Source: Antedon mediterranea
Taxonomy: Eukaryota; Echinodermata; Crinoidea; Comatulida; Antedonidae
NCBI RefSeq assembly: GCF_964355755.1
Contig: NC_092679.1
Coordinates: 744,001-808,000 of the forward strand
DNA length: 64,000 nucleotides
Reading direction: 5' to 3'
Positions within the stretch are counted from its first letter, which is position 1, and each line of letters begins with the position of its first letter. The notes below the pieces were generated by a model. It made no database searches, was not told the origin of the DNA, and saw only the letters and a list, made by a program, of their open reading frames with translations. A program made the position numbers and the translations under genes. Shown here in pieces: positions 4,101 through 53,300 of the stretch.

Positions 4101-7100
4101 AGTAAATTCTCATCTCGAAACTATTCCAAACTAAGTAATAATCACAAGCTCTGAATCAACACATTCAAGCTTTATTTATTTAGTATATATTATTTGTATT
4201 AAATCATTATCATCAGTAAACGCCTCTCATCTTGTGACATGAAGTTTTCCACTTTACACCAAAAATGTTATTGTATGTAATGTTATTGTATGTAATGTTA
4301 TTGTATGTAATGTTATTGTATGTAATGTTATTGTATGTAATGTTATTGTATGTAATGTTATTGTATGTAATGTTATTGTATGTAATGTTATTGTATGTAA
4401 TGTTATTGTATGTAATGTTATTGTATGTAATGTTATTGTATGTAATGTTATTGTATGTAATGTTATTGTATGTAATGTTATTGTATGTAATGTTATTGTA
4501 TGTAATGTTATTGTATGTAATGTTATTGTATGTAATGTTATTGTATGTAATGTTATTGTATGTAATGTTATTGTATGCCTTTTACTCTGCTGCATGGGAT
4601 GATTTTGTATTATATACTTCGTTAAAAATTAAAAAATTACCTATGTAGTAGATAGAACCATTTGTGCAACCTAGCAACAGGAACGTCCCTGCTGTATCGT
4701 AGCTACTGATTGGCTGAATATTCTGACACTGAAACAATAGAATTTTATAAATTGGAACATATAAAATGTTTAAAAAAAGCAAAACTTCAGCAAGTCATTT
4801 ATAATGTTGCTGGTAATAATAAAAATGAAACATATACTCAGTTTATTTACAATGCAAAACAAGTGACAACCAAAATGATTAATATAATAACTAAAACTAA
4901 AATAACCTGTTTTTAAATCAGTAATAAAATATAATAAGCATTTTTTTTGTGTTAATTATGTCAATAATTGATGATTTGGAATTTGGCCATATTATAATGC
5001 CTAACTGGAATTTCCACTCTAACAATGGCAATCTCCCAAGGGCTAGATGCCAATGATAATAACATTTCATCATCTTTATAAATATAAGATGTAGTAATGC
5101 AAGCCAGTAAATACTTGAAAGATGAGATTCAATGTTTGGAATTTGTACAGTGCTCAAATATATCAATACAATATACACACATGATGAGTGAAACACATTT
5201 TGTAAGTATAAACTAGACTAGATAGTGTATATAGTGAGGTGGGTATTGCCTTCACCTAATGTATAGGTACTAAGTCTATTGAGCCTAAATAGGTATTTAA
5301 GGGATGATTTGGTTTTACCATGTTGAAACACTGATTCTTGTCAGATCACTAAAGTTTAGCAGTGTTAAGCCCGGGTTAGAGCTTGGATGGGATACCATCT
5401 GGGAATACCGGGTGCTGTATGGAGCTGGGATCCGGTTAGGCATTTAAAATCAGCACTGCTGACTCTTATGGCAGCCCCCTGCATCTAGTATCTACCTCAG
5501 GTGAAGGCAGGCACTAGACGATCAATGTTAGGACCAATCAAGGTGCTTTAAACAGTCCTAGCTTAGTCATCATATATATATACACAAGAGACCTTTAGCT
5601 AATCTGCCTACATACTAAGGCTAGGTCCAACCTATTATACAACTTTACCTGCCAACTACGGGTAACTGCATGCCACACTCCTACTTTCCCTGTATGACTA
5701 GTAGCAACCAGTTGACTTCCGATAAAAAATAATGAATCGACTCTCACTCCAAGATCAAAAGTACCTGAAACGAATTCATTCATTCATTCAGGAAAAAAAA
5801 ATCCAGTAATTTTAGTAAAGTATGATAAATATACAGTAGCTAAGAGCACGCCAGCCAGGTTTTAGATGATCATCCCCTTCCTGAAGCACCCTTTTCAAAC
5901 TACAGATCAACAGCAAAAGTATATATATTTTCTTAAGCTCTGTCTACACTTTCAAACTTTATGTGACAAAAAATGTGATGTGCCCATATATGGACATGAT
6001 GACATCATATCACTACCATATTTGGGTATATCACTACCATATTTGGGCACATCACATTGTTTTTGTCAAGCTAGTTTGATAGTGTAGATTTTAGAGCTTT
6101 ATACAAACCTATTTCATTTCTTAAACTATCATCTTGACAACACCATAAACGGATCATACTGCCAAATGCCACAGCCAGCATCTTATCTCTTCCATCTGTC
6201 TGTGTCACTCCAACAACTTTAGAGTTGAGAGCGAGTCGTTCAATGGACTGTTCGAGATAAGGACTCGTAAAAACGAGCTGCCATCCGCTGGATTCCTTGA
6301 TACGATAACAACAAACAAAGTGTGCATAGGCTACAGCGATCCAGCCGTGGTGTCCTGTTACTATTATTACTTTTCGTGGATCTATATCTATACAAAAAAT
6401 AGAAATAATTATTTAATGGAAAGGGGAAAACCCAAACCTTAAATGGAGATTATAAGATAAATAGCGGTGTAGTATAAAATGCAATGTATAAGAAATCAAT
6501 TTTGAAGCACAGGGCCGTAGCCAGGATCTGTCCAGTGGGGGTTCGGACACTAAATATTTGGGTCAACCCCCCCCAACCCCCCCCCCCCCCGGGGCCTGAT
6601 GCGAAGCGAATTTTGTTAAATGACACCCCTAGATGGCCGGAAAAGACACTCTCGTGCAGCATGCTACCGATGAGCAAAAAGATCGTACTTTTTTCCTCCT
6701 TCTCAAACACGTCGATAATTTAAAGGACGATAACTATTTGTTGCCGTATGTTAGATGCGCGTGCTCTGTGTGCGGAACCGCCGATTGTTTGATCATTTAC
6801 TCCGTATTTTGTTTTGCGTTCAAGTTCAATGCGAACGTACATCTAGGAGCAGCCCCGAAAAAAGCACACTGGTTGAAGGCAAATGCTATTTGCTAGCTCT
6901 ATCTATAATATTTATTTACAGCAATTTGTTGAGGAATATAAATATGTAAATAGGTGATATTGATACATTTTAATACGTATCGGCTGGTGGTCTAGAAAAA
7001 AATAATCGGATGCCATAATGTGAACTACAGTACTTGATACCATAGATATTATAGTGTAAAATATTAATATTCACTATAATCCTCTATGATACATTATACT

Positions 7101-10384: not shown

Positions 10385-13300
10385 ATGAGTGATTCTCCTC
10401 TTAGTCTTACCTTTCCTCAGGCTGCTGTGTCCACACAGCACGACGCCTCATCAGACCAAATCTCTAATTTGTTAGCACTGACACATAACTCTTTTCAAAA
10501 GTGTTTTGATTCCCAAGAAGTTGAATTTATAGAAGGAAGTATATTAGACGACCTAAGATGTGTTTTGTGTCGACGTCCCCTCCTCCGGGCGCAGCAGGCA
10601 CCTTGTGGATGCAGATTTTGTTCATGTATTTTGAATCAGACATACGAGTAAGTAGGCTATGACGTAATGATTTTGAGTTTTGTATTTTTAAAGATGCATT
10701 GTCCCTTTTACTAATTCCAAAAAAAATTATTTAAACAATTTCGAAAAAAGTCGGTCATTTTGAAGTATCATAATAGTTATTAACTTTCACCAAAAATTAT
10801 AGTAAAAAAAAAATCTTTTCTCAGTGAAATACAGACGTTTTTTGTTCAAAAAATAACTTTGATTTCCAGTCAAAGTTTTTGATCAAAACATATCCTAATG
10901 GAACGCGCTTGTTTGGCTACTCTGTATGCATAATCATAAACTTCCTCGCGATCTGTGTGAAAACACCTTCTCAACCGTGACGAGTTGTAAACAATCCTAA
11001 TTAGCATCATTCATAATGCATACTCGTGGTTTGAAATCTTTGTTTACTTTCGCTCACGACGATTTTCAAGACGAAATGTAATTAAACTAATTTACCTGTT
11101 AATTACGTAAATTTGTTAATTTTGGCTCGAATTTTCGACTTAAAGTGAATAACTTTAATATTACTTTGATATGGCCAATTTAAATTCAGAATATTTTGAC
11201 CTTCATATGAAAATATGTATGTTGAGACTTAATTTTAATTTTTAAATAAAGGTATTTTATTAAAATGTAACACCGTATCTAAACTTTAGAAATGGTGATA
11301 CTAATCTTCTTTTTAATCAGAGGGCCCAAGTAGAATGCAAAAGTTTTAGGTCAATCGACCCAGTATAAATTTGTCTGGATGAGTAGCCTAATCGACGTGA
11401 TTATGACTTAAAATATTTAGACTGGTAATCTATATATATATGACTAATTTAAATCAATAGCCTCATCATAATTTGGCTGTTTAAATTTAGTCACTACCGT
11501 AGTTAGCCTATACGATCTTTTTCACCTTCGAAAATAGAAGAAATGTTTTAAATTTTATTTGATTTGAAAGAAATAAATGTTAATTTGAATTGAATTGACC
11601 TTTTAGTGACTTCGTTTCAAAATCACAAGCATTACATGTTGCAACACTATAGGCAATAATAACTATTTATTTATCCATTTTTATCACCATAACTTTGGCC
11701 GTACGATACTAATAATAGGCCATATAATAATCTTTATAATGACTATATTTTAATAAACCTCTTTTCAACGAACCGGGGAAGACATGTCATTTTTATACAT
11801 CATGTTCTTTTTTTATTGAAATTATTAAAACGTAGGCCTATGTCATTAGTCATGTTAGCATTGAATTGTTATAGCCTCCTACCATTTTTTTTATTCATTT
11901 TGTTTATTGATTTTATTAATAAATCGTAATTAATACTTACTTATAGTACAGTATCGCTCCAAACACTATCCAATAACATTAAATGACTCCAAAATAATTG
12001 AAAATAAATTCTGTTGTAGCGATTTTGAAAATACTGTTTGTCCGAACTGTAATGAAGAATTTAACAAGAAAGAACTGGCACCCGACCATCATGCCAGACG
12101 GCAAATCCAAAGGGCTATCGTGTACTGTCCTCATAAAGACAACGGGTGTATAGACACGTTCCCTCTAAAGGAACTTAAAGAACATGTTGAAGGTTGTCTT
12201 CATTCGCCTGTTGTCTGTATGCACCATACCCGAGGATGTCAAGCCAAGTTGTTGAGAAAGGATCTGATGGAACATTTAAAGAACACTTGTGATTATCGAT
12301 TGGTTAAGTGTCAATATTGCAGCGAGAGCCTTCCCCATACGGACGTTCAGGTCAGTACACTTTCCTATACTAGTAGTAGGCATACTTTATCTTTAGGCCT
12401 AATATTTGAGAAATTTAAGAAAAAATATTCAAAAGCAGAAAAATAATGGTAGGCCTAAACATGACATTATCTTTACGAAATAGCGCTATATAAATGTCGC
12501 ATTATATATAATGACTTCAAATAATTATCTTACGGTATATTATTCATTGAATTCTAGGAACATGAAAAATCCTGTTCAAAATTGCCGGTCAATTGTCCGA
12601 ATAACTGTGGCCAGAAGGACATACAGAAGGACCTTATTGAACAACATATAGATGAATACTGCCCACTTCAAGAAAAAACCTGTAAATACCAACCTTACGG
12701 ATGTACATTTAAGGTAAGTGGTATCTTTTGGTACTTTATAATGGTATTATAAGGTTGAACAGGGTCCCTAAGATGGGGGTTGGGAGTGTAGGTGTTGGGA
12801 ATGTACAACTTTGTTCCTCACCTCAGGCCCAGCTCTCATACAAAATGCATATTAAAAACACACGTACAATCTTTTATTGATTATTGCTCATTTCAGGGTG
12901 TGTTGGAACAATTAGAAAAGCACATGGACGTGGATGTTAAGAAACATCTTCATTTGGTAACCATGACAACTGCAATGTTGGATTTAAAATTTTCGGAATC
13001 GTTACGTTACATCAGCGAATTAAAGGGTCAGAGAAGCGTAGATGATGAGAAGGAAAAAGAACTTTTGAGAGAGATTAATTCAATAAAGAATACGCTTAAA
13101 GTTAAGGATGAACGATTTGGCAGTTTACAGGTAAGCATAGTCATCATGAAGATGATAATGAAGATAATGATGATAATAATGATGATGATGATGATGATGA
13201 TGATGATTATGATGATGATGATGATGAAGACGATGATGGTGTGGATGATGGTGATGATGATGACGACGATGATGATGGTGATGATGATGATGGTAATGAT

Positions 13301-14979
13301 GATGATGACGATGATGATGATAATGACGATGATGATGATGATGATGACGATGATGATGATGATGATGATGACGATGATGATGATGATGATGATGATGATG
13401 TAAAAATTATGTAAAAGTTGATAGTGCGTGTTTATAAATTGTGTCTTTTTGTGATTCACTATTCCAGAAATTCTTTGGTAAGCATTTGGATAATTTCAAA
13501 ACATTTGAAGCCAAAGTTGAAAATGCGGCTGACAAAAGGGATTTAGTGGAACTACGACAATTACTGATACCTCTACAAGATTCCGTAACACTATTGGCAA
13601 GAAAAGTGGAAGAAGTTGAAGAAAATGCACACCGTGCAGTGGGTGTCCCATCAACAATTAGGCCTATAACGAACGGTATGTATCTAAAGCATTTGATGTG
13701 CCCATTATGGACATGATGATGTCATATCACTACCATATTTGGACATATTACTACCATATTTGGGCACATCACACTTTTTTTGTCAAACTATAGTTTGATA
13801 GTGTAGACAGGGCTTTATAATTAATAGTTTCAGAATGAGAGAATTGTCATTGATATTTCTCCTTAGTTCATGTTAGGCCTCAACCACTTCACACCGTCTA
13901 ATTATTTCATACTTTATGGCAATCACTCGTGATTTTGTAGAAGTTAGAATGTGATTGTGTGGTATACAGTTAGAATAATATTTTGAAACTATAATCGTCT
14001 CTTATAATTTGTATAGGACATGGACAAATAGCGAGTTTTGAGAAAGAGTTAAACGTTCAGTCTGTGAAGCAAGCTGAGAACGAAATACGATTCCAACTGT
14101 TGGAAACAGCCAGCTATGACGGTGTATTGCTTTGGAAAATCTCGGGAATAAGTCGAAGGAGACAAGAAGCCGTGAATGGAAAAATACTATCTTTGTACAG
14201 TCAGCCGTTCTATACCAGTAGATATGGTTATAAGATGTGCGCAAGGATATATCTAAACGGGGACGGGATGGGCAAGGGGACGCATGTTTCTCTTTTTTTT
14301 GTCGTCATGAAAGGGGACTACGACGCCCTTCAACAATGGCCCTTCAGGCAAAAGGTAATATACATTAATATTTATAGTTTTTAAGAAGAAGTATGAATAA
14401 AAGGGAATTCTATTGAAGCCCGGTATTAAAACCACATTTCCCATATATTTTTCTTTCTTTCTTGTGGTTGTCAAAATAACATTTAGGCCTATAACTACAT
14501 GACTTATTATTTAAGAAATTCCTTTCAGAACTCCCAAAACTAAAAAAAGAATATTACCAGCTTATAATAATATTATCTCATCACTTATCACTTTCATAGT
14601 CCTCGCCTACATCATTATGAGTTACCACAGCTTGTGCTTTTGTAGCTATGAAAACTTTCTTTTTTAATTTTCCCATCATTGTTTTTTTCTCACACCCGAA
14701 ATTATTTCTTTTTCGGGTCGACGTATGATTTATTTATTAATGTTCTTTTTCTAGGTGACGATGATATTGCTTGACCAGGAGACTGGTACACGGAGTCTAA
14801 CAGACTCATTCAAGCCTGACGTGCGCAGTAGTAGTTTTAAACGACCTACTGGTGACATGAATGTTGCATCCGGGTGCCCCCTGTTTGTGTCCAATCAAGT
14901 TTTACGTGATTCAGCTTATGTTAAGGATGACACAATGTTTGTTAAGTTAATTGTCGATACATCTGACCTGTTCATTTAA
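10385..14979 (+). CDS. TRAF3: TRAF3-like TNF-receptor-associated factor
   Basis: Cytoplasmic adaptor that docks to TNF-receptor-family tails through its C-terminal MATH domain; vertebrate TRAF3 regulates NF-kB and interferon signalling. Exons: 10385-10647, 12020-12350, 12558-12713, 12897-13130, 13468-13675, 14017-14354, 14755-14979 (1755 nt, 584 aa; human TRAF3 is 568). Order: N-terminal RING (CVLC ... CGCRFC ... CPNC, ~residues 57-98), TRAF zinc fingers (CPHKDNGC, CMHHTRGC, CQYC, CPNNC, CKYQPYGC), a coiled coil, then MATH. The MATH part has YDGVLLWKI, LSLYSQPFYT, YLNGDGMGKGTH, SLFFVVMKGDYDAL, MNVASGCPLF and ends IVDTSDLFI. These read closer to TRAF3 than to TRAF2. The RING is abnormal: where TRAFs have CGHRFCxxC, this has CGCRFCSC, so the His ligand is Cys and the last spacing is one residue short. 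Intron 4 contains a GAT microsatellite and intron 5 a MITE. Confidence 0.85.
13141..13400. repeat. (GAT)n microsatellite
   Basis: Interrupted GATGAT runs of ~260 bp start 11 bp after the splice donor of TRAF3-like exon 4. They create spurious poly-Met and poly-Ile frames on the two strands. Not coding. Confidence 0.95.
13685..13816 (+). mobile_element. MITE family A copy 3 (left end lost)
   Basis: The left terminal repeat is reduced to TAAAGCATTTGATGTGCCC. The interior and the right end GATAGTGTAGACAGGGCTTT are intact. It starts 10 bp after the TRAF3-like exon 5 donor. Confidence 0.82.
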
Positions 14980-15977: not shown

Positions 15978-17075
15978 ACATGAGTTTCTATTTTAATGTT
16001 TGATTTGTTTGCATGACCAATGCTGACAGCATCACAAACTTTATTTATAGAAAAAAACTAATATTGCAAATAAATAGAATGAATTAGCAGGCCTAAATAT
16101 CTTTCTTTTTTAAAACCGAAAACATTTTTGGAAATATGTGTCCTTTCACTTTCGGTATAGTTACATCTTTGAGCAGCAACAAAATATCTGTTTTTTCTAC
16201 ACATTCATGACTGTGTTTCATATTCGAGTACTATTGTATCGCTGTTCTGCAATGAGGCCGCCTGTTGCATTCATATCTAATGATTCGTATGATTGCGTAA
16301 TAATAATATGCGATGGAATTAAAAGTGTGTTTGAACACATGACGTTGCATTGACACGTCACGGTCACACCGTGTTGTGTTAACATGCGCTATTGTACCTT
16401 TGATCATGCCTTATTTGAGTCACAATCGTTACTATCACATGTTTAGCCACATCATATTTATTTAGTAATATATTATTATACTATGATGATATCAAATTTA
16501 TGGTCACGCCTATGTTCATGAAATGTATATTATGCTTTACTTTATTGTAATAGTACCGTACTAATTGGTACTTACTATACAGTAGATATTTAGTAAACAT
16601 AAATAATGAAAATCCGGTCAGTTTATCTATAAACTCCCTAAAAATGACGTTATCCATTGTAATTATAGGCATCCTGTTATTTAATGAATAAGCCGACAAC
16701 GAAAATTTCTGTTATTATTTTTTAATATTATTATGATAGCATAAACATAAAACATACAGTAGGCCTATAATAACATTCATTTTAACAAAAAAACGGGAAA
16801 ATTGTGTTATTCAATACATAGTTAGGTAAAATAACAACCTCCATTCCTTCATTTTATCACGTACGTCCATTTTTACAAAATCAATTCAGGATCTCCATCA
16901 AATGGAAAAAAAAAGAAAACATTTATAATTTATAAAAAGGGAATGGAATGCAACTCTAAAGAAAAATTGGTATCTCACATGCAACAGTCCATTGTTATAT
17001 TAATACAATTTATATATACAAACGACAACATTTAAATAAAAACGATTTGGAAGCATAAAATATTGTTTATTCCAG

Positions 17076-20000
17076 TTACGGGTCGGGTTCAATGTAGTCT
17101 GAGTTGTTGTCTGAACTAAGATTGTTTGGCGCGTCTTTATCTGCTGCTGCATCCATTGTAGCCACTCTATCATTTCTTCCCATGATAGACGAGCCAGGCT
17201 GGAGGTATTGGTGAGGTAGTAAGTAATCTGTACCGAACTCCTCTTCCATGTCTTGGTATTCCGTGGAGTCACCAAGCATGTGGAGCTTGCCATTCAAAAG
17301 CTCTTCCTCAATGTCTTGATAATCTGCTGAATCTCCGAGCATATTGAGTAATTCTATCGATCCTTTTTTTATCATTTTTGTCGGCGTTTCCAAAGTTTTA
17401 TCAAAGTCTTTTGAGTCACCTAACATGTTGTCTGCGCTCTTCGTATTGGCGGTAGGTATTAAATCGTGTTGATCGCCCTTATTTGCAGACTTGATTGTAA
17501 TAATTTCTTTCTCAAAATCTTGATATTCCATAGATTCGCCTAACATATGGACAGATTCATTGCTCCGACCACCACCACCGGTCGTGAGGTATTTATTGCT
17601 GGTGTTTTCAGTAACGTCCACGTGACCACCAGTATGTGTTGGCGGGTAAGTATGAATTCCACGAGTGACGTCAGGATGCCATCTCTGGTGGTTGCCAGGA
17701 TAATTTATCCCGCGTATAGTAGAATCCAAGGTTCCCGGATCTTCATGTTCGTTATCAATCTTGTAGTAATACGGACCAGGGGGTCGCCAAACATTGGCAG
17801 TAGTTGGACCTTTCAAATCTAGATAGGCGTAGCTTTCAGATGACGCCTGGCTAGGAACCATACGTCGTCGCCTGTTAGATGGGTCGCCGTTAGATGGGTC
17901 GCCGTGAGATGCATCGTCGGCAGGCGTGTCATACAATCTATTACGTTTAGGAATCGGGACTGCATATTCAGGTTCGTTTAACTGCTTATTATGTTGTCGT
18001 AGACTTGTATATTTAATTGGGTAACCAGGGAGATAGTACGCATAACCTTCAGGATTGACGGCGTACAAGTGCTCTGGGACGGCAACGCTTGATGGCAGGG
18101 TTCCTTTCTCAGAGTACGGAATGTAAGTAGAGTAGGCGCTGTCGGCTTGACTTGGTAACGTTTCACCTGTACACGGAATAATAATTAAAAATAATTATCA
18201 TGTTGTATAGTTTTATTATATAATTTATTAATTAATAATGTTCGAAAGAATGTGTATCTATGAACGTGTCTGTCACCAGTAACCATGGATATCACTAGAA
18301 ACGGTAACTCATGAAAGCGTAGGAGCTTAAAAATCAATTATAATTGGGTTGTGTTTTTCTTTCAATGTAATGGCTGTGTTATCTATCTGTTCATCGCTTG
18401 AGTAATTCAAAAATTTGTTTTTATGAGTACGTGACAAAAACATGTTACGAGGGGGTGGGGAGTGGGAGTAAGTATTTCACTATCATTGCATTAAAATAAT
18501 TTTTATTTCTTTAAATAATAATAAAATTTGGGCAGAACAGTAAATTGTGTTGAAATAACAGTAGGCCTACTTACTTCTATAGCCCACGCCCGGCCTCACT
18601 CCAAATGATTTATGGCTATTATTTTTCGTTTTGTTTTTCTCCAACCTACATAATTATTGTGAAACAGAGTATTAGCATGGAGTTGTAATTTCAACTCTCT
18701 GGTGTTAATTATGCCAATTTGACAGTTTTAATTTGAATATCTTAAAGCCTTTTTTAAACAATTCCTATATTCACTTTCATAATCAACTGGGGCGTTAAAT
18801 GATATAATGTTTTAGTTCTGCCTTTAAAAAAAAAACCGTTACTCTTGTAATAACAGTCAGGAAAAGCAGTACCATTTGTACAGTATAATAACAAATATTG
18901 TTCATTCATTCTTTATATGTTTTCCCTAATCGAAATCGAACAGGAAAAGTGACAATCCTGTTTTTATTTAGTTTTATTAGAACCAAAAATAAATAAAACC
19001 AGTTAACTTATTGGCCTAATATAATAACCATATTCTGCATGTCAAGATTCTTGTTATTTTATTTTTGACATTTAAATGAAAGTCATATGTCACAAGGATG
19101 TTTCGGGGAAAAGTAAACATTTTTAGCACAAATTAATTGTTACTTCTTTCTATATTTTATGAATATCAACAAGGATATCCGTAATGATGTCCGTCTTGGA
19201 TAAATATAAAATAATTCGATAAATTCCCTTGTATTGTACGTATTGTATTCTGTACAATTCGGTAACTGGCCATAGGAGGAAATACATATTTCCTCCATTG
19301 ATGGGAAAACTCACCTTCGTTTTCTTCGGAATAATAATGTTATTAATGTGATAATAAAGATGATAAATAAGACGGCTGCTGAACCGGAAGCTGCGACCGT
19401 TAATATTGGGGACATGTGGCCATTCTCCCTGACAAACGTCATCTGTGACGCATTTGCCTGACTTGTGTTCCCTAAAAAGGAAATAAAATAGATTATTAAT
19501 TAATTATCTAATATATCTTTTTATGTCATAGGCCTACAACGCGCAGGACAAAATCAATTGCTTCTTTATTGATAGTTTATTTTTGGACAAGTGTAATAAC
19601 TTGTGTAAATTATCTAGTTTTACAACTATAAATGAGTGGCAAATATCATTTTTTTTAATACTGATATTTAATATATTATTATAATAATGATAAATTAATA
19701 TATTTTTATATATTGTAATGTAAAATTCCATCGTTTATTGATTATACAAAATACACCCCATTGGATCATTAATGAGTAATTAATATATCAACTGAGTCAG
19801 AATAAGAGAAACACTAATAGAAAATTACAACAACAGAAAAGGAATTCCGTGGAAATTTAGGTACACCTCCATGATAGTACTAACAGTGAATCACTGTTCA
19901 TTCAATCGTGAATATAGTAAATCGGTGAGGGCGCCATGCTACTTGATCAGAACATGGAGTAATTATTTATTTTTCTAAATAATTCCTCCATAATCAGAAT

Positions 20001-21697
20001 CAAGAAACTTTTTTTTTTCTTTTCCATAATGATGTTTTAAACATTATTAGTATCATCACTTACCTCCAGGCATATGTGATGCAGGACTTGTAACCACTGG
20101 ATATATTGTCGTGATTTGGGCAGGAGTTTTATCGGAATTTGGTCTTCTTTGACCTGAAATATCCGAATGGTTTTAAATATTTAAGTAACTCATAACTCAT
20201 CTACAGTTAAATTATGTACAGAATCAGTTCATTTTTAGTGCTCACTTCGTCCATTAGATAAATAAAACTAATTGGCCTATATAACTATAATTAGAAAACA
20301 AAATTAAAGGAATACCTCGAGTGGTAACGATTGGTCTTGAGGTGGTTACAATTTTGGCTACTTTGCTGGTAGTTGGTAATGGGTCGGTACCTTTTTTTGA
20401 AAAAATAAAATAATTGTATATAATATTTGGTGTAAACCAAAGTGTAATAATCAGAATTATGACTGTTATTAATGATTATGGTGATGACATTGCGGGTAAT
20501 AGGAATAGCACAATCTCTATGTAGTAACAATACCTGGTGAACCATGTGACTGCGTTTGTTGTGTTGTAGGCCTACTACCAGTAGTATAAGGTATAGCAAC
20601 GTTGCCTTTTGTCGTAACTGATGTTGCTTCAGTAGGCTTGGCAACTTTACCTATTGAATACAAAATATTAAACATTAACATGTTTTTCTTAATCTTTTAT
20701 ATACTGTACATATATTAATCAATTACATTTAGACGCAGAATATTAAGTATTTTATTTGTAGACCCGTAATCTATCGATAAGGTTACCCAAACTCTTGCTT
20801 ACTGAACTGAACATAAGCAAATTAATTAATTAATTTTCGGTTAATATTCGGACGCATTATTTTTTCTCCTATTTGATAGAGCCAAAAGGTTTCAGTGTAA
20901 TAAGGTGACTGAGCATGGGCTCTTCCACAAAGGCACATTCAAGATTGATCTAATTACAGATTATGAGTATAGATTATACTATTACAGATTATGAGTATAG
21001 AATACTATTACAGATTATGAGTATATATTATACCAGATTATGAGTATAGATTATACCATTTAAATTATCTATAGATTGAAAGATTTATATCTTTAGATGA
21101 CTCATGACGTTGATCCTTAGCCTGCCCACATATACAAACATCCTTATTCCTATATTCATCTACCATGCATTTCCACAGTGTTGTTGCTCGATCCATGCCC
21201 TATGTAATAACACATACATAAATTACATAAATTAGGGCATGGATCGAGCAACAACACTCTGTGGAAATGCATGGTAGATGAATATAGGAATAAGGATGTT
21301 TATATTTTAAACATGGATTATCAAATTCCGGATATCGAGAGTTTGTGAAAGTGTTACTTTATCCGTCTGGATCAAGTGCCAGAAACATACCACTATATCA
21401 AATCACTATTATGTTTTCGCGATATTTCTTTTCGTACATAAGTACGAGGACCCCTCATGAAACGTCACAAAATAAACATGAATATTCATTAGTCATATCC
21501 ATAACCCATTAATAATTGAAATAAAGGACTTTAATCTGATCTATTATATATATATATCTATGGATAGCAGTTTACTGATTAAATTGTTGTCAATCCTATA
21601 CCTACCACTGTCATAGCAAATCCTACAAGTTGCTTCACCGTATTTTTCAACACATTCTGGCCATTGCGAAATGATTTCTTCTGGGCGTGACGTAGAG
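17076..21697 (-). CDS. Unrecognised type I membrane protein with repeated tyrosine-motif tail (N-terminus missing)
   Basis: Exons in transcript order: 21697-21606, 20650-20534, 20390-20316, 20153-20064, 19471-19315, 18166-17076. The first visible exon encodes a short Cys-containing segment (WPECVEKYGEATCRICYD). Three same-phase exons give a Thr/Ser/Pro-rich stalk (TTSKVAKIVTTSRP and similar). Next comes one membrane span (VAASGSAAVLFIIFIITLI) with a LLFRRKRR stop-transfer, then a ~360-residue cytoplasmic tail. The tail repeats a motif four times: MLGESMEYQDFEKE, MLGDSKDFDK, MLGDSADYQDIEEE, MLGDSTEYQDMEEE. It also has AYLDL, PSQAD and PSQAS, and ends SDYIEPDP. The YQDM copy fits the YxxM consensus for PI3K p85. 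The phases of exons 19471-19315 and 18166-17076 do not join (a direct join gives a stop), so a small exon is missing or one allele is broken. The signal-peptide exon was not found; an in-phase candidate ends at 21996. A TNFR-like receptor is possible but unproven. Confidence 0.6.
20957..21062. repeat. Short tandem repeat, ~28-bp unit
   Basis: About four imperfect copies of ATTACAGATTATGAGTATAG plus a few bases. They lie in an intron of the membrane-protein gene, ~70 bp from the long hairpin. Confidence 0.8.
21130..21304. repeat. Long near-perfect hairpin (73-bp arms, 30-bp loop)
   Basis: The left arm at 21130-21202 and the right arm at 21233-21304 are reverse complements except for a 2-bp difference beside CCACAG/CTCTGTGG and a few terminal bases. 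The loop is AT-rich. It lies in an intron of the minus-strand membrane-protein gene. It could be a palindromic foldback transposon or a transcribed double-stranded-RNA hairpin; arms this long are unusual for an animal pre-miRNA. Confidence 0.92.
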
Positions 21698-23155
21698 CTG
21701 TAAAATAATTAAATTCAATTTTAAATTATTAATGATAATAATAATTTGCAGTTATTAGGCCTACCTATAGAGTGAGAGTTTATGTTGAAAGTTACATTAT
21801 GACCCGTGTCAGAGTTTCGTTTAAGTTATCCCTCATAATTTAAAGAGAAAAAATTATAGCAGAAACATACTGGTTTAAAAAGTTAAAACTATACATTGAT
21901 GCAGTTTACTTCACGAAACGGAAATAGCCGCTACTCAATCCGTTAAAATTTACGGCAGTAGTGTTAGCAAATGTCGTAAAGCAAATTCCCCTTACCTTGC
22001 CAAAAGAGCAATCTCTGAGCACAGTATACGGAACTCCTCTTGTAGAAACGGACTGGACATGGTGTTACGTACCAGTGTATATTATCCCCAGTTACTGGTT
22101 AACTGCAGTTTATCGCATAAAATGCCGTTTATGCGATCAAGAATACAAGATATTTACAAATATTATATATCCGTTATAAAGGATCTCTAGATATAAAATT
22201 AAAGTGTTATTTCAAGAAAAAATTCTACCGACTGGAAGCCACTTCAAAAACAATAGCCGACGTAAATGATATTGATGGATTAATTGTTAAGAATAACGGA
22301 TTATGAATATGAAATACTTTGTATCGTCATCGTTCCTTTAATCCGCATCCGGTCGTTGGAAGACATCCGTCGTTGGACTAGATTGTTCATTTTATGGATT
22401 GAACGGTGGTCTTAAACCGGTCATGGCCAACGGACTTAGCATGCTGATGGTGGTCAGCTTATGCTCATTTCCCTTTCTACCACCACCATCTTTCTTTAGA
22501 TAAATAAATACTACGGCGTAATTTAAAAATGAACACAACATTTACTAATTTGCAAACAAATGATAATCTATGAATAATCTTGCAAAATGCGAAATATTTC
22601 CACACAACGCATCAAGAGATTAGCTACAAAGATGCTCTTGAAAACAATGATCAATGACGTCTACGCGAAATCAATGATTTCTACACGCGCACACTGACGT
22701 TTACGCGCAAACAATGAAGTTCACGACACGCGTTAACTATATAATGACATACATTATGTAAAACAGTTACGTCGTTCACGCGCAAACTTTGAGGTGCGCA
22801 CAAAACAATGTTACAAAAAAACACTAGAATAAGTAAATTTATTTATCACAGTGATCTTAAATTAAGAATTTAATGAGTCCTTTTATACAACCATGTTTTG
22901 ATATAAATATTGAGGGAAATGTAACAAACTTTCAGAATCTATTGTTTTAAGTTAATGTAAAATCAAATCTTGCAAACCAGCTATTTTACAATCTCATCAA
23001 TGGTTATTTATCTAAAAATTAGTCATAAGACACATGTATAACGATTTAGTATTGTATCTCGTCATATTATGATTGGTAAAAGAACCACATTATCAGCTGG
23101 CATCTTGAATGGCGTGGTCAATTAACAACTCTCTGGTCTGATTCTATTGCCATGA
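21698..23155. other. Intergenic / 5' part of membrane-protein gene
   Basis: This should contain the missing first exon(s) and promoter of the minus-strand membrane protein. A possible exon end is the GCAAG|GTAAG donor at 21996, in the right phase, but no signal peptide is evident. Around 22640-22800 there are several copies of an ACGCGCA/CAATGA(C/A)GT-like motif of unknown meaning. The rest is featureless. Confidence 0.4.
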
Positions 23156-50300: not shown

Positions 50301-53300
50301 ACAATACAATAAGTTAAATTGCTATTTAATTTGTACATTACCGTTTATGATTATTGTTTTTGTACTGAACAGCTTGGGACTATATGTTATGTCAGAGAAA
50401 AGATTGCCTTGTACCTAAAAACAACGCTGCAGTTAAGGTACTTTGAATTTTAAATATGTTGATAACATGGAAATACCAATAACCACACATTGAATGACTT
50501 AAGAACGAACTCAAAATGAATTGAATAAAATATGTGTATAATGTGTATATTATGGTACAGTAATCTCGGTTTTTATAAATCATTGTGTCGCACTTTATTT
50601 ATGAATTTACTTCTGTTTTTACCCAAGATGTGTATGGACTATGGAGTGGCTGGTAAATACAGTAAAGTACCTTATCCTCCAGTCTATTTCTGTGCTGATT
50701 GTTGTGAACTTGTTGCAAGGTAAATATATCTTGTAAAGATCCCATCTTTCAGGGTTGCTATATAAGAATTATAGTATTTGTATGTAATTATTTCAACATA
50801 AATAGAAACTATAGTACTACTGCTGTGTCATCTATTTTTATTATTTTTGTTTATTTATTTGTTTGTTTATCTTTCAATTTCTTCCATCTTCTCTTTTTAG
50901 GGAAACACGAAAAACAATGATTCCAGTTTTAAATCCAAGAGAGTTTGTTGCAAAAGAATGCGAAAATAAGGTAAAGTGTTTTTAATTTTCATCATAATAA
51001 ACTGACCATGTAAAATTATTCTATTGCAGTAACTGCAGTAACTAGATTTCTTTACTGCAATAAACATAGGATTTTAGTTTATTTTGCTGCGCATGCTTAT
51101 GAGACAGTCTGCAATAAACTGTGTGTATGATTACCAAAACAAAGTGTACTTACTGCAGTTACTGCAGTAGAATGATATCGACCCTAATACATTTTTCACT
51201 TCATAGAACTGCCAATCATCAGACAAAGGTGTGACGTTTGTTTGTTTCTCACCTGCCTGCACCAGTCTACACAGCCACCTACCAATGAGTTACTGCAAGT
51301 CCTGCTTCGCTTACAACCACAAAGATGTTAACCATACCTATCAAGAGTTCCCTGAAGACCCTTGGTCACGAGAGAAGGAGATGCAGGCCTACTTTACAGA
51401 GGCAATTGTTAGGTTAGTATTACATCATTGTATGCAATATTTCCATGCAAAAAGTACATGTTGTTGGCGGATCTTAACTCACAATTTAAACGTTTTGCTC
51501 TACGTTTACTGTGGACTTTGGAAATCAGAGTCACAACACTGATGTTAGTGGTTGGTATTACCGAAATATTCGTCCATATCTTAGTGTTGAATTGTATTAA
51601 ACAATTTTTTATTGCGGTTGACTTTGGGCCGACTTGACTTTGGGCCAACTTGACGTGAGGCCGACTTGACCTGCACCCTTAACAACAAACTAACATAACA
51701 TTTTCAAAACTGTATAGCCTTTTAAAAGAAGCGCAACCAGTTGATGATGATCTTAAAGCCAGTGGAAACTCGGACAATACGCATGATGACCGATATGCAC
51801 ATACCCACGACAACGACGTACACGAGTCCAAGCTGAACTTAGATGACCCACGCATGTTGAGCAGATTCGGTATCTGGCTTCTAGTGGAAAAATGTCAACC
51901 TAGTGAGAAGACTGCTGGAGAGGTCATAGGTCGACTGTTAAACATGTTGTTTCAGTGGTATTTCTACACATCCAAAGTTCCTGATGATGGTAATTACTTA
52001 TCATTAGTATACAAATAATTAATGTTTATGAGTTGAATGGTGAGAATATTTCATGAGTTGAACAATTGACTGCTCTTTTTAATTTGTAAGAATACAATCA
52101 TGTGTGTTATAATATCCCATATAAAATATAAAAGAAATGTAATTAGAATAGTTATATTCTCACTAAAACTAGATGAGTATTAAAGCAGGATTCACTTTTT
52201 TTTTTAAACTTCAGATGTTGGAAACTGTGTTGAAAAATTGAAAACAGATGTAAGTTAGATTGAATTAATATTTTTCTTTACAATCAGTTGCGTAACAGCT
52301 ATGATTGCTCACTGGCTAAACCAAGGGACCCAGAGCTTGAGGAGCCCGACAGCTTGAGCAGCTCACGGCATCTACCCAGTGTTAAAGGGCCCATTAGGAG
52401 TGCGAAACCAAGGGCCCCAGCAAATGAATAGCCCACTGCAACTAACCAGCGTTGGAGGGCCTCTTAGTAGTGCTAAACCTGGGGCCCCTGCAAATGAATA
52501 GCCCACTGCAACTATCCAGCGTTGGAGGGCCTCTTAGTAGTGCTAAACCTGGGGCCCCTGCAAATGAATAGCCCACTGCAACTAACCAGCGTTGGAGGGC
52601 CTCTTAGTAGTGCTAAACCTGGGGCCCCTGCAAATGAATAGCCCACTGCAACTATCCAGCGTTGGAGGGCCTCTTAGTAGTGCTAAACCAGGGGCCTATG
52701 CCTCCTGCGTCACGCCATTGTTTACAATAAATGATACTTTTGATTTTGGCTTTAATATTATAATGTATATGTAATTTTTATTTGCTATGGTTCTTGATTT
52801 TTCAGTATGTTTCTGGTTGGTTGGCTAATGTTCGTGTAAACTGCTTTGATGTGTTTGTTAACTGTTTATTACCTCAACCACCACAATACGCAAGGGTTGG
52901 AGGACACTGGTAAATCAATCTTTATAAATCAGAAAATTAAATTAAAAACAGAAACACAATGTAGCACAAATTAATTTTTTTTTTACAAAAGTATATTACT
53001 CATAAATATTCATGGTTTTATTTGAATATTCATAGTGTGATATAATTATTTATTTGTTTTACCCAGGGACACCCTTTGCAGCAAAACATCTGAAATTGAT
53101 CAAGGTCTACAGATCATATTTAGTCTGACTCTTTACAACTGTGTAACATACGAGGTAAAACAATTTATATTTGTCTATATTCTTGCTCTTGATTGTCCAG
53201 CTTGTTAACTAATACACAGTCTCCCAATACCGGACTCTCTGAAAACCCAAAACTCTCTACCAATACCAAACTTTGCTTGAGGTACCAAAGGTCTCAGCAC

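Follow-up and report, generated by a model that had tools for sequence, protein, structure and literature searches.

Gene structure and predicted topology

The locus described here encodes a tyrosine-rich tail with a repeated MLG[DE]S motif, and the question it raises is what kind of protein carries this tail. It lies on the minus strand of the window, the whole 64,000-nt stretch of DNA that was analysed, and all coordinates are positions in that window. The preliminary description had placed a membrane protein tail at 17076..19471 and quoted from it MLGESMEYQDFE, MLGDSKDFDK, MLGDSADYQDIE, MLGDSTEYQDME, AYLDL, and a C-terminal SDYIEPDP; every one of these strings was found in the open reading frame at 18194-17076 (minus strand), which is long and free of stops and has an AATAAA at 17071, just past its stop on the same strand. 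The interval 17076..19471 does hold the transmembrane segment and the tail, but the predicted gene reaches further, to about 22060. As predicted, the gene (22060-17076, minus strand) has eight exons with canonical splice sites and compatible phases that give an uninterrupted frame of 585 amino acids (Table 1), and residue numbers follow the model with this first exon, the start codon of which has an A at -3.

The transmembrane and tail exons are out of frame if joined directly at their best sites, and a 71-nt exon was therefore placed between them. The 1148-bp intron separating the two was screened for exons that are 15-250 nt long and end in a consensus-like donor. This gave three phase-compatible open candidates with one common GTAAGT donor, and the acceptor of the 71-nt candidate was the most pyrimidine-rich among the three. 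Codon usage was then scored with a model trained on 4314 codons, which came from the frames of immunoglobulin (Ig) receptors on C7 (see below) and from long exon frames of the window, and was compared with that of 1000 open stretches, as overlapping draws, of window DNA presumed to be non-coding. None of these 1000 stretches reached the score of the tail exon, and the scores of the three stalk exons were reached by 0, 0, and 5 of them (in the order of Table 1) and that of exon 2 by 13. The first, transmembrane, and 71-nt exons are unsupported by codon usage, because their scores were matched by 183, 461, and 276 of the 1000 stretches, respectively.

This silence of codon usage for three exons of a model predicted from sequence, together with the extra exon or weaker acceptor needed for an in-frame junction between the transmembrane segment and the tail, would fit a gene-model artefact or a decaying gene, the tail frame being unexpressed or spliced to other exons. 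We consider this explanation very improbable, as it is opposed by the long stop-free tail frame with its coding score, by the poly-A signal right after the stop, and by the constraint on the repeats that is described below.

Table 1. Predicted exons of the gene and copies of the repeat, in window coordinates
Feature	Position	Strand	Details
Candidate exon 1 (weak)	21996..22060	-	ATG at 22060; MSSPFLQEEFRILCSEIALLA; in frame with downstream exons; donor GTAAGG, phase fits
Candidate exon 2, short Cys-containing ectodomain segment	21606..21697	-	Splice sites and phase fit
Predicted stalk exon	20534..20650	-	Ser/Thr/Pro-rich; phase 1-1
Predicted stalk exon	20316..20390	-	Ser/Thr/Pro-rich; phase 1-1
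Predicted stalk exon	20064..20153	-	Ser/Thr/Pro-rich; phase 1-1
Transmembrane exon	19315..19471	-	NTS/NAS glycosylation sites, transmembrane segment, RRKRR stop-transfer
Predicted 71-nt juxtamembrane exon	18575..18645	-	RLEKNKTKNNSHKSFGVRPGVGYRS; basic stretch; GTAAGT donor
Last exon, cytoplasmic tail	17076..18166	-	~362 residues; stop TAA at 17078-17076
Repeat copy 1	17505..17549	-	HMLGESMEYQDFEKE; in spliced numbering VHMLGESMEYQDFEKE; Y437
Repeat copy 2	17397..17429	-	NMLGDSKDFDK; in spliced numbering DNMLGDSKDFDKTLE; F476 replaces Tyr, no YQD half
Repeat copy 3	17301..17345	-	NMLGDSADYQDIEEE; in spliced numbering LNMLGDSADYQDIEEE; Y505
Repeat copy 4	17238..17282	-	HMLGDSTEYQDMEEE; in spliced numbering LHMLGDSTEYQDMEEE; Y526

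The predicted protein consists of a short cysteine-containing N-terminus, a Ser/Thr/Pro-rich stalk, one transmembrane helix, RRKRR, and 391 cytoplasmic residues. Its cysteines are found only at positions 14, 37, 46, and 49; the stalk of ~112 residues (54-165) is free of cysteine, with Ser, Thr, and Pro making up 40%, and glycosylation sites are predicted at 148 (NTS) and 153 (NAS). The hydrophobic peak, which marks the transmembrane segment at about residues 169-194, is followed by RRKRR. The first exon as predicted has no clear signal peptide; among decamers that start within residues 1-35, ILCSEIALLA is the most hydrophobic. The predicted topology is type-I-like and single-pass, and with the transmembrane segment in the exon at 19471-19315, 26 tyrosines in the 391 cytoplasmic residues (6.6%), and four repeats, the earlier characterisation as a single-pass membrane protein whose tyrosine-rich tail carries a repeated motif holds. 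AlphaFold2, run on the tail as a single sequence, gave no confident structure (mean pLDDT 36.9), in a kind of run that can also fail on folded proteins, and the tail is probably disordered.

Two minor observations made by eye concern the upstream part of the gene. The two stalk exons within 20650-20316 (minus strand), both of phase 1-1, have KVAK and TT-rich stretches in common (KVAKPTEATSVTT / KVAKIVTTSRPIVTT) and may go back to an ancient duplication of one exon. Between exon 2 and the first stalk exon, the intron contains a long, foldback/MITE-like palindrome (catgcatttccacag... / ...ctgtggaaatgcatg) at about 21300-21150. The letters CRIC had also suggested exons 1-2 as the start of a RING-CH (MARCH) gene, which was unsupported by Pfam.

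The MLG[DE]S repeats and their constraint

The core [HN]MLG[DE]Sx[DE][YF] is present in all four copies and in three of them continues as YQD(F/I/M)E. As had been noticed before, Phe stands in place of Tyr in one of them (copy 2, F476). The conserved core is to be extended by one residue at its start, since His or Asn precedes the Met in every copy. It had also been missed that MLG[DE]S, which is best conserved, precedes the tyrosine and is present even in the copy that lacks Tyr. The spacing of ~21 residues between tyrosines that had been given is correct for copies 3 and 4 only (Y505 and Y526), the distance from Y437 to Y505 being 68. LG[DE]S occurs four times in the tail, a number reached by none of 200,000 shuffles of the 391 residues, in which the maximum was three, seen once. 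The [HN]MLG[DE]S repeat is thus real, well-defined, and above chance. Genome-wide, a degenerate DNA pattern for MLG[DE]S..Y.[DE] gave four matches, three in this gene and one with an in-frame stop (backwards control, 0), with copy 2 missing because the pattern demands Tyr; a genome-wide gene family defined by this pattern was accordingly rejected.

Pairwise comparison of copies 1, 3, and 4 over 16 codons gave a pooled pS of 1.13, at which synonymous sites are saturated, and a pN of 0.18. For the 9-codon core, the values in all six pairs of copies were 0.79-1.31 for pS and 0.13-0.28 for pN, from small numbers (4.2-5.3 synonymous sites per core per pair). Because the amino acids are kept while the synonymous sites are saturated, the protein sequence of the repeats seems to be under constraint. 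The distances between the copies are unequal. A pattern of this kind would result from selection on a short linear motif, be the copies old duplicates or of separate origins. Furthermore, copy 2 retains MLGDS yet has Phe and no YQD, so that the upstream MLG[DE]S half seems to function in its own right.

This last point bears on the possibility that the core binds a non-SH2 partner (by kinase docking, by contact with a scaffold protein, or through Ser phosphorylation at S-x-[DE]), in which case Tyr phosphorylation would only modulate the binding. The retention of [HN]MLG[DE]Sx[DE] in four of four copies, the Phe copy included, and the low pN of the 9-codon core in all six pairs would be expected from such a role. 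The Tyr half is still retained in three of the four copies, however, nothing relevant to the strings MLGDS and YQDM/YQDI turned up in a text search of the literature, and we know of no motif of the MLG[DE]S form. On balance, this explanation appears improbable.

Tyrosine motifs in the tail

Motif enrichment was judged against shuffles of the tail. YxxP, which the preliminary description had overlooked, occurs six times, compared with a shuffled mean of 2.04 (p 0.0097), and [DE]Y.[DE]Phi occurs three times, compared with a mean of 0.10 (p 0.0001; 20,000 shuffles). The YxxPhi-type motifs that had been pointed out are indeed present (seven in the tail), but their count is no higher than chance (mean 4.63, p 0.16). 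Similarly, YQDM (Y526) does fit the YxxM consensus for PI3K p85, but it is a single YxxM among 26 tyrosines, which makes the PI3K reading weak; receptors that bind p85 usually have several such sites.

The absence of a classic ITAM, also stated earlier, was confirmed, since YxxL/I-x6-12-YxxL/I had no match in the tail, either in this form or with [LIMVF], and an ITAM receptor was rejected. The motif scan of the tail likewise found no ITSM, NPxY, Y.N (Grb2-type), or CxxC, and no HRD or VA[IV]K kinase motif. An NPxY tail was rejected on this count, as were a LAT-type adaptor, given the absence of a juxtamembrane CxxC, and a receptor tyrosine kinase, given the absence of the kinase motifs in the tail and of any Pfam domain over the cut-off.

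An immune-type activating or inhibitory receptor was also weighed, in which YQD(F/I/M)E would serve as hemITAM-like half sites and clustering would recruit a Syk-family kinase or a tandem-SH2 phosphatase. There is a precedent in CLEC-2, a receptor with a cytosolic YxxL that is reported to signal when Syk, by its tandem SH2 domains, crosslinks two receptors (PMC10082178, in part), and the acidic residue before Tyr and the hydrophobic residue at +3 in three of the four copies are in line with it, as are the DYQEMENE-like motifs that Ig receptors encoded elsewhere in this genome have in their tails (see below). With no match in the tail for the ITAM or for the hemITAM-like pattern [DE][DE].?Y..L, a single match for the ITIM pattern [SIVL]xYxx[ILV] (IKYTSL), which lies outside the repeats and is unremarkable in a tail so rich in Tyr, and a predicted ectodomain devoid of any Pfam domain, we regard such a receptor as rather unlikely.

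A trafficking tail is a further alternative. Y.D.E has three matches in the tail, all within the repeats, and these Y-x-D-x-E copies could be di-acidic/tyrosine signals for ER export or sorting, with a constraint unrelated to phosphorylation. One signal is normally enough, and the presence of three copies counts against this explanation, as do the conservation of MLG[DE]S, the Phe copy with no DxE, the enrichment of YxxP, and the 26 tyrosines, all of which it leaves unexplained. Although the VSV G signal YTDIEM resembles the Y.D.E form (excerpt of PMC3779271), we find a trafficking function of the repeats hard to favour and hold it to be improbable.

Relatives in databases and in the genome

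The earlier statement that no family was known for the tail agrees with our searches. Neither the tail nor the predicted ectodomain with the transmembrane segment had a Pfam match over the cut-off (each had a single one at chance level, E 0.22 and 0.3), the tail had no relative in NCBIfam and nothing at E 10 in the PDB, and two repeat copies gave nothing relevant in the PDB (best E 2.3). In the gene's own genome (354 Mb, 18 contigs), the sole match of the tail at E <= 0.001 was itself, and up to E 10 the piece comprising exons 1-2 had no match outside these two exons. The gene was not identified in the excerpts of the literature on echinoderm phosphotyrosine receptors.

With the transmembrane and juxtamembrane part as query, two places on C7 were matched (E 0.12 and 0.13, 38% over 58 residues) in addition to the exons of the gene itself. 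Ig receptors are encoded there, either in a single long open frame or in two that overlap, and their tails carry LEDYQEMENELY; the Ig assignment refers to Pfam Ig models below the cut-off for the one receptor scanned. Genome-wide, a scan for [DE]YQ[DE]PhiE gave 31 matches and its backwards control 11. The 31 comprise 3 in this gene, 4 in C7 receptors, 8 in a repeated element, 3 that are xanthine dehydrogenase-like by eye, and 13 others, among which no receptor was recognised by eye in the 12 inspected. A stricter scan for [DE]YQ[DE]xExE gave 11 matches (control, 2), distributed over this gene (3), C7 receptors (4), and places elsewhere with no recognised receptor (4). The likeness of the C7 motif was noticed post hoc, and its four copies count as one event because they belong to one family.

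Like this gene, the C7 Ig receptors (at about 3.7 Mb) have [DE]YQ[DE]PhiExE in their tails and a weak transmembrane/juxtamembrane similarity; unlike it, they have Ig ectodomains and a single exon and lack MLG[DE]S. Alignment of the tail with their tails was no better than chance, 161 of 1000 shuffles scoring as high, and on this result and the E-values of the transmembrane match, a detectable common ancestry was rejected. The DYQEMENE-type motif of the C7 receptors is probably a convergence on a shared ligand type.

The Ig receptors were also observed in their own right. Apparent arrays of intronless Ig-domain transmembrane receptors are located at C7:3700001-3760000, C7:2.41-2.47 Mb, C3:11.87-11.90 Mb, and C3:18.74-18.91 Mb, with matches at 76 places (E<=0.001; more than one of them in some genes), 64 of which lie in open frames of 400-727 aa. 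In the stretch of C7 that was inspected (3700001-3760000), tails vary and repeat the Tyr motifs LEDYQEMENELY, YVNNP (several times), and VYSELNKPDYKECENEIY. The arrays are a possible expanded immune receptor family.

A putative phosphotyrosine docking scaffold

Taken together, our preferred reading is a type-I-like, single-pass protein in which a short mucin-like ectodomain is combined with a long, probably disordered tail that serves as a phosphotyrosine docking scaffold, and we give it a probability of about one half. Its basis is the anatomy, the repeats, the constraint at the protein level, the enrichment of YxxP, and the fact that no catalytic motif or domain was recognised, whereas the splicing, the topology, the phosphorylation, the partners, and the cell type are inferred. 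The continuous frame over eight phase-compatible exons, the hydrophobic peak ahead of RRKRR, the 26 tyrosines, the three [DE]Y.[DE]Phi sites, the weak indication of disorder, and the [DE]YQ[DE]PhiExE of the C7 Ig receptor tails also speak for it. In this mechanism, clustering of the ectodomain would bring in Src- or Abl-type kinases, which would phosphorylate the tail; SH2 adaptors of the CRK/NCK type would then dock on the six YxxP sites; and the repeated MLG[DE]Sx[DE]YQD(F/I/M)E modules would bind a second partner in several copies and hence with avidity.

The proposal of a docking scaffold draws on the analogy with the YxxP tails of DCBLD1 and DCBLD2, which have eight and seven YxxP, respectively, and bind CRKL-SH2 after phosphorylation by SFK/Abl (PMC6029619, in part). 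Both are, like the present protein, single-pass with many YxxP in the tail, against six here. They differ in having CUB, LCCL, and discoidin domains, none of which was found by Pfam in the predicted ectodomain, and the present protein in turn differs in its short Ser/Thr/Pro-rich ectodomain and its extra MLG[DE]S..[YF] repeats, the comparison being one of descriptions and not of alignments. It may thus work like DCBLD1/2 without being one, as it shares the YxxP feature and not that of the ectodomain.

Transmembrane adaptors of the LAT, PAG, LAX, and NTAL type have a small ectodomain, one transmembrane segment, a long tail with many tyrosines, and no enzyme, and all of these features are shared by the present protein. 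LAT/PAG-type adaptors have a juxtamembrane CxxC palmitoylation motif, whereas the tail here has neither CxxC nor Y.N, and its stalk is larger and glycosylated-looking. Mucin receptors of the MUC1 and CD43 type combine a Ser/Thr/Pro-rich ectodomain with a signalling tail, as the present protein putatively does; in contrast to them, its stalk is only ~112 residues long, no SEA domain was reported by Pfam, and its tail is about five times the length of that of MUC1. The failure of the DCBLD, ITAM, and LAT-type features lowers the case for membership in these groups and not the working analogy. The gene is best described as one that belongs to no family found in Pfam, PDB, or NCBIfam but is putatively of a known kind, the phosphotyrosine scaffold.

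Several observations count against the docking scaffold. MLG[DE]S, where conservation within the repeat is highest, is N-terminal to the tyrosine and persists in the Phe copy, and a role as a plain SH2 ligand would not account for this. YxxPhi is not above chance, Y.N sites and a clear signal peptide were not found, and codon usage is silent on three of the exons, as described above. A further possibility would be that [HN]MLG[DE]Sx[DE][YF]QDPhiE is a bipartite signalling motif not described before, made of a phosphorylation-independent MLG[DE]S anchor and a phosphotyrosine site, which would be present in multiple copies in a lineage-specific mucin-like receptor and the Tyr half of which would have been acquired independently by the expanded intronless Ig receptors; this idea is speculative, and we think it rather doubtful.

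If the docking-scaffold reading is true, an animal lineage has made its own multi-site phosphotyrosine scaffold by combining YxxP of the CRK type with a new repeated module. The similar YQ(D/E)PhiE in some tails of the expanded Ig receptors would then suggest that the lineage favours one SH2 reader common to both.

Genomic neighbourhood

The gene is flanked on one side by a gene with a weak Pfam similarity, below the cut-off, to ribosomal protein S10 (27640-27473, minus strand) and on the other by a plus-strand TRAF gene, with zf-TRAF in 11934-12443 and MATH in 13995-14381. The region of the TRAF gene contains, by eye, a long repeat of the GAT/ATG trinucleotide type (13031-13495) with several frames open. 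Further away, an exon at 51207-51539 (plus strand) is similar to UNC-79 (Pfam PF14776, E 7.9e-13), and a reading of the large plus-strand gene from 51207 as UBR4 was rejected on this assignment. At 4216-4645, a 15-base unit repeated about 20 times in tandem, again with several frames open, was observed by eye.
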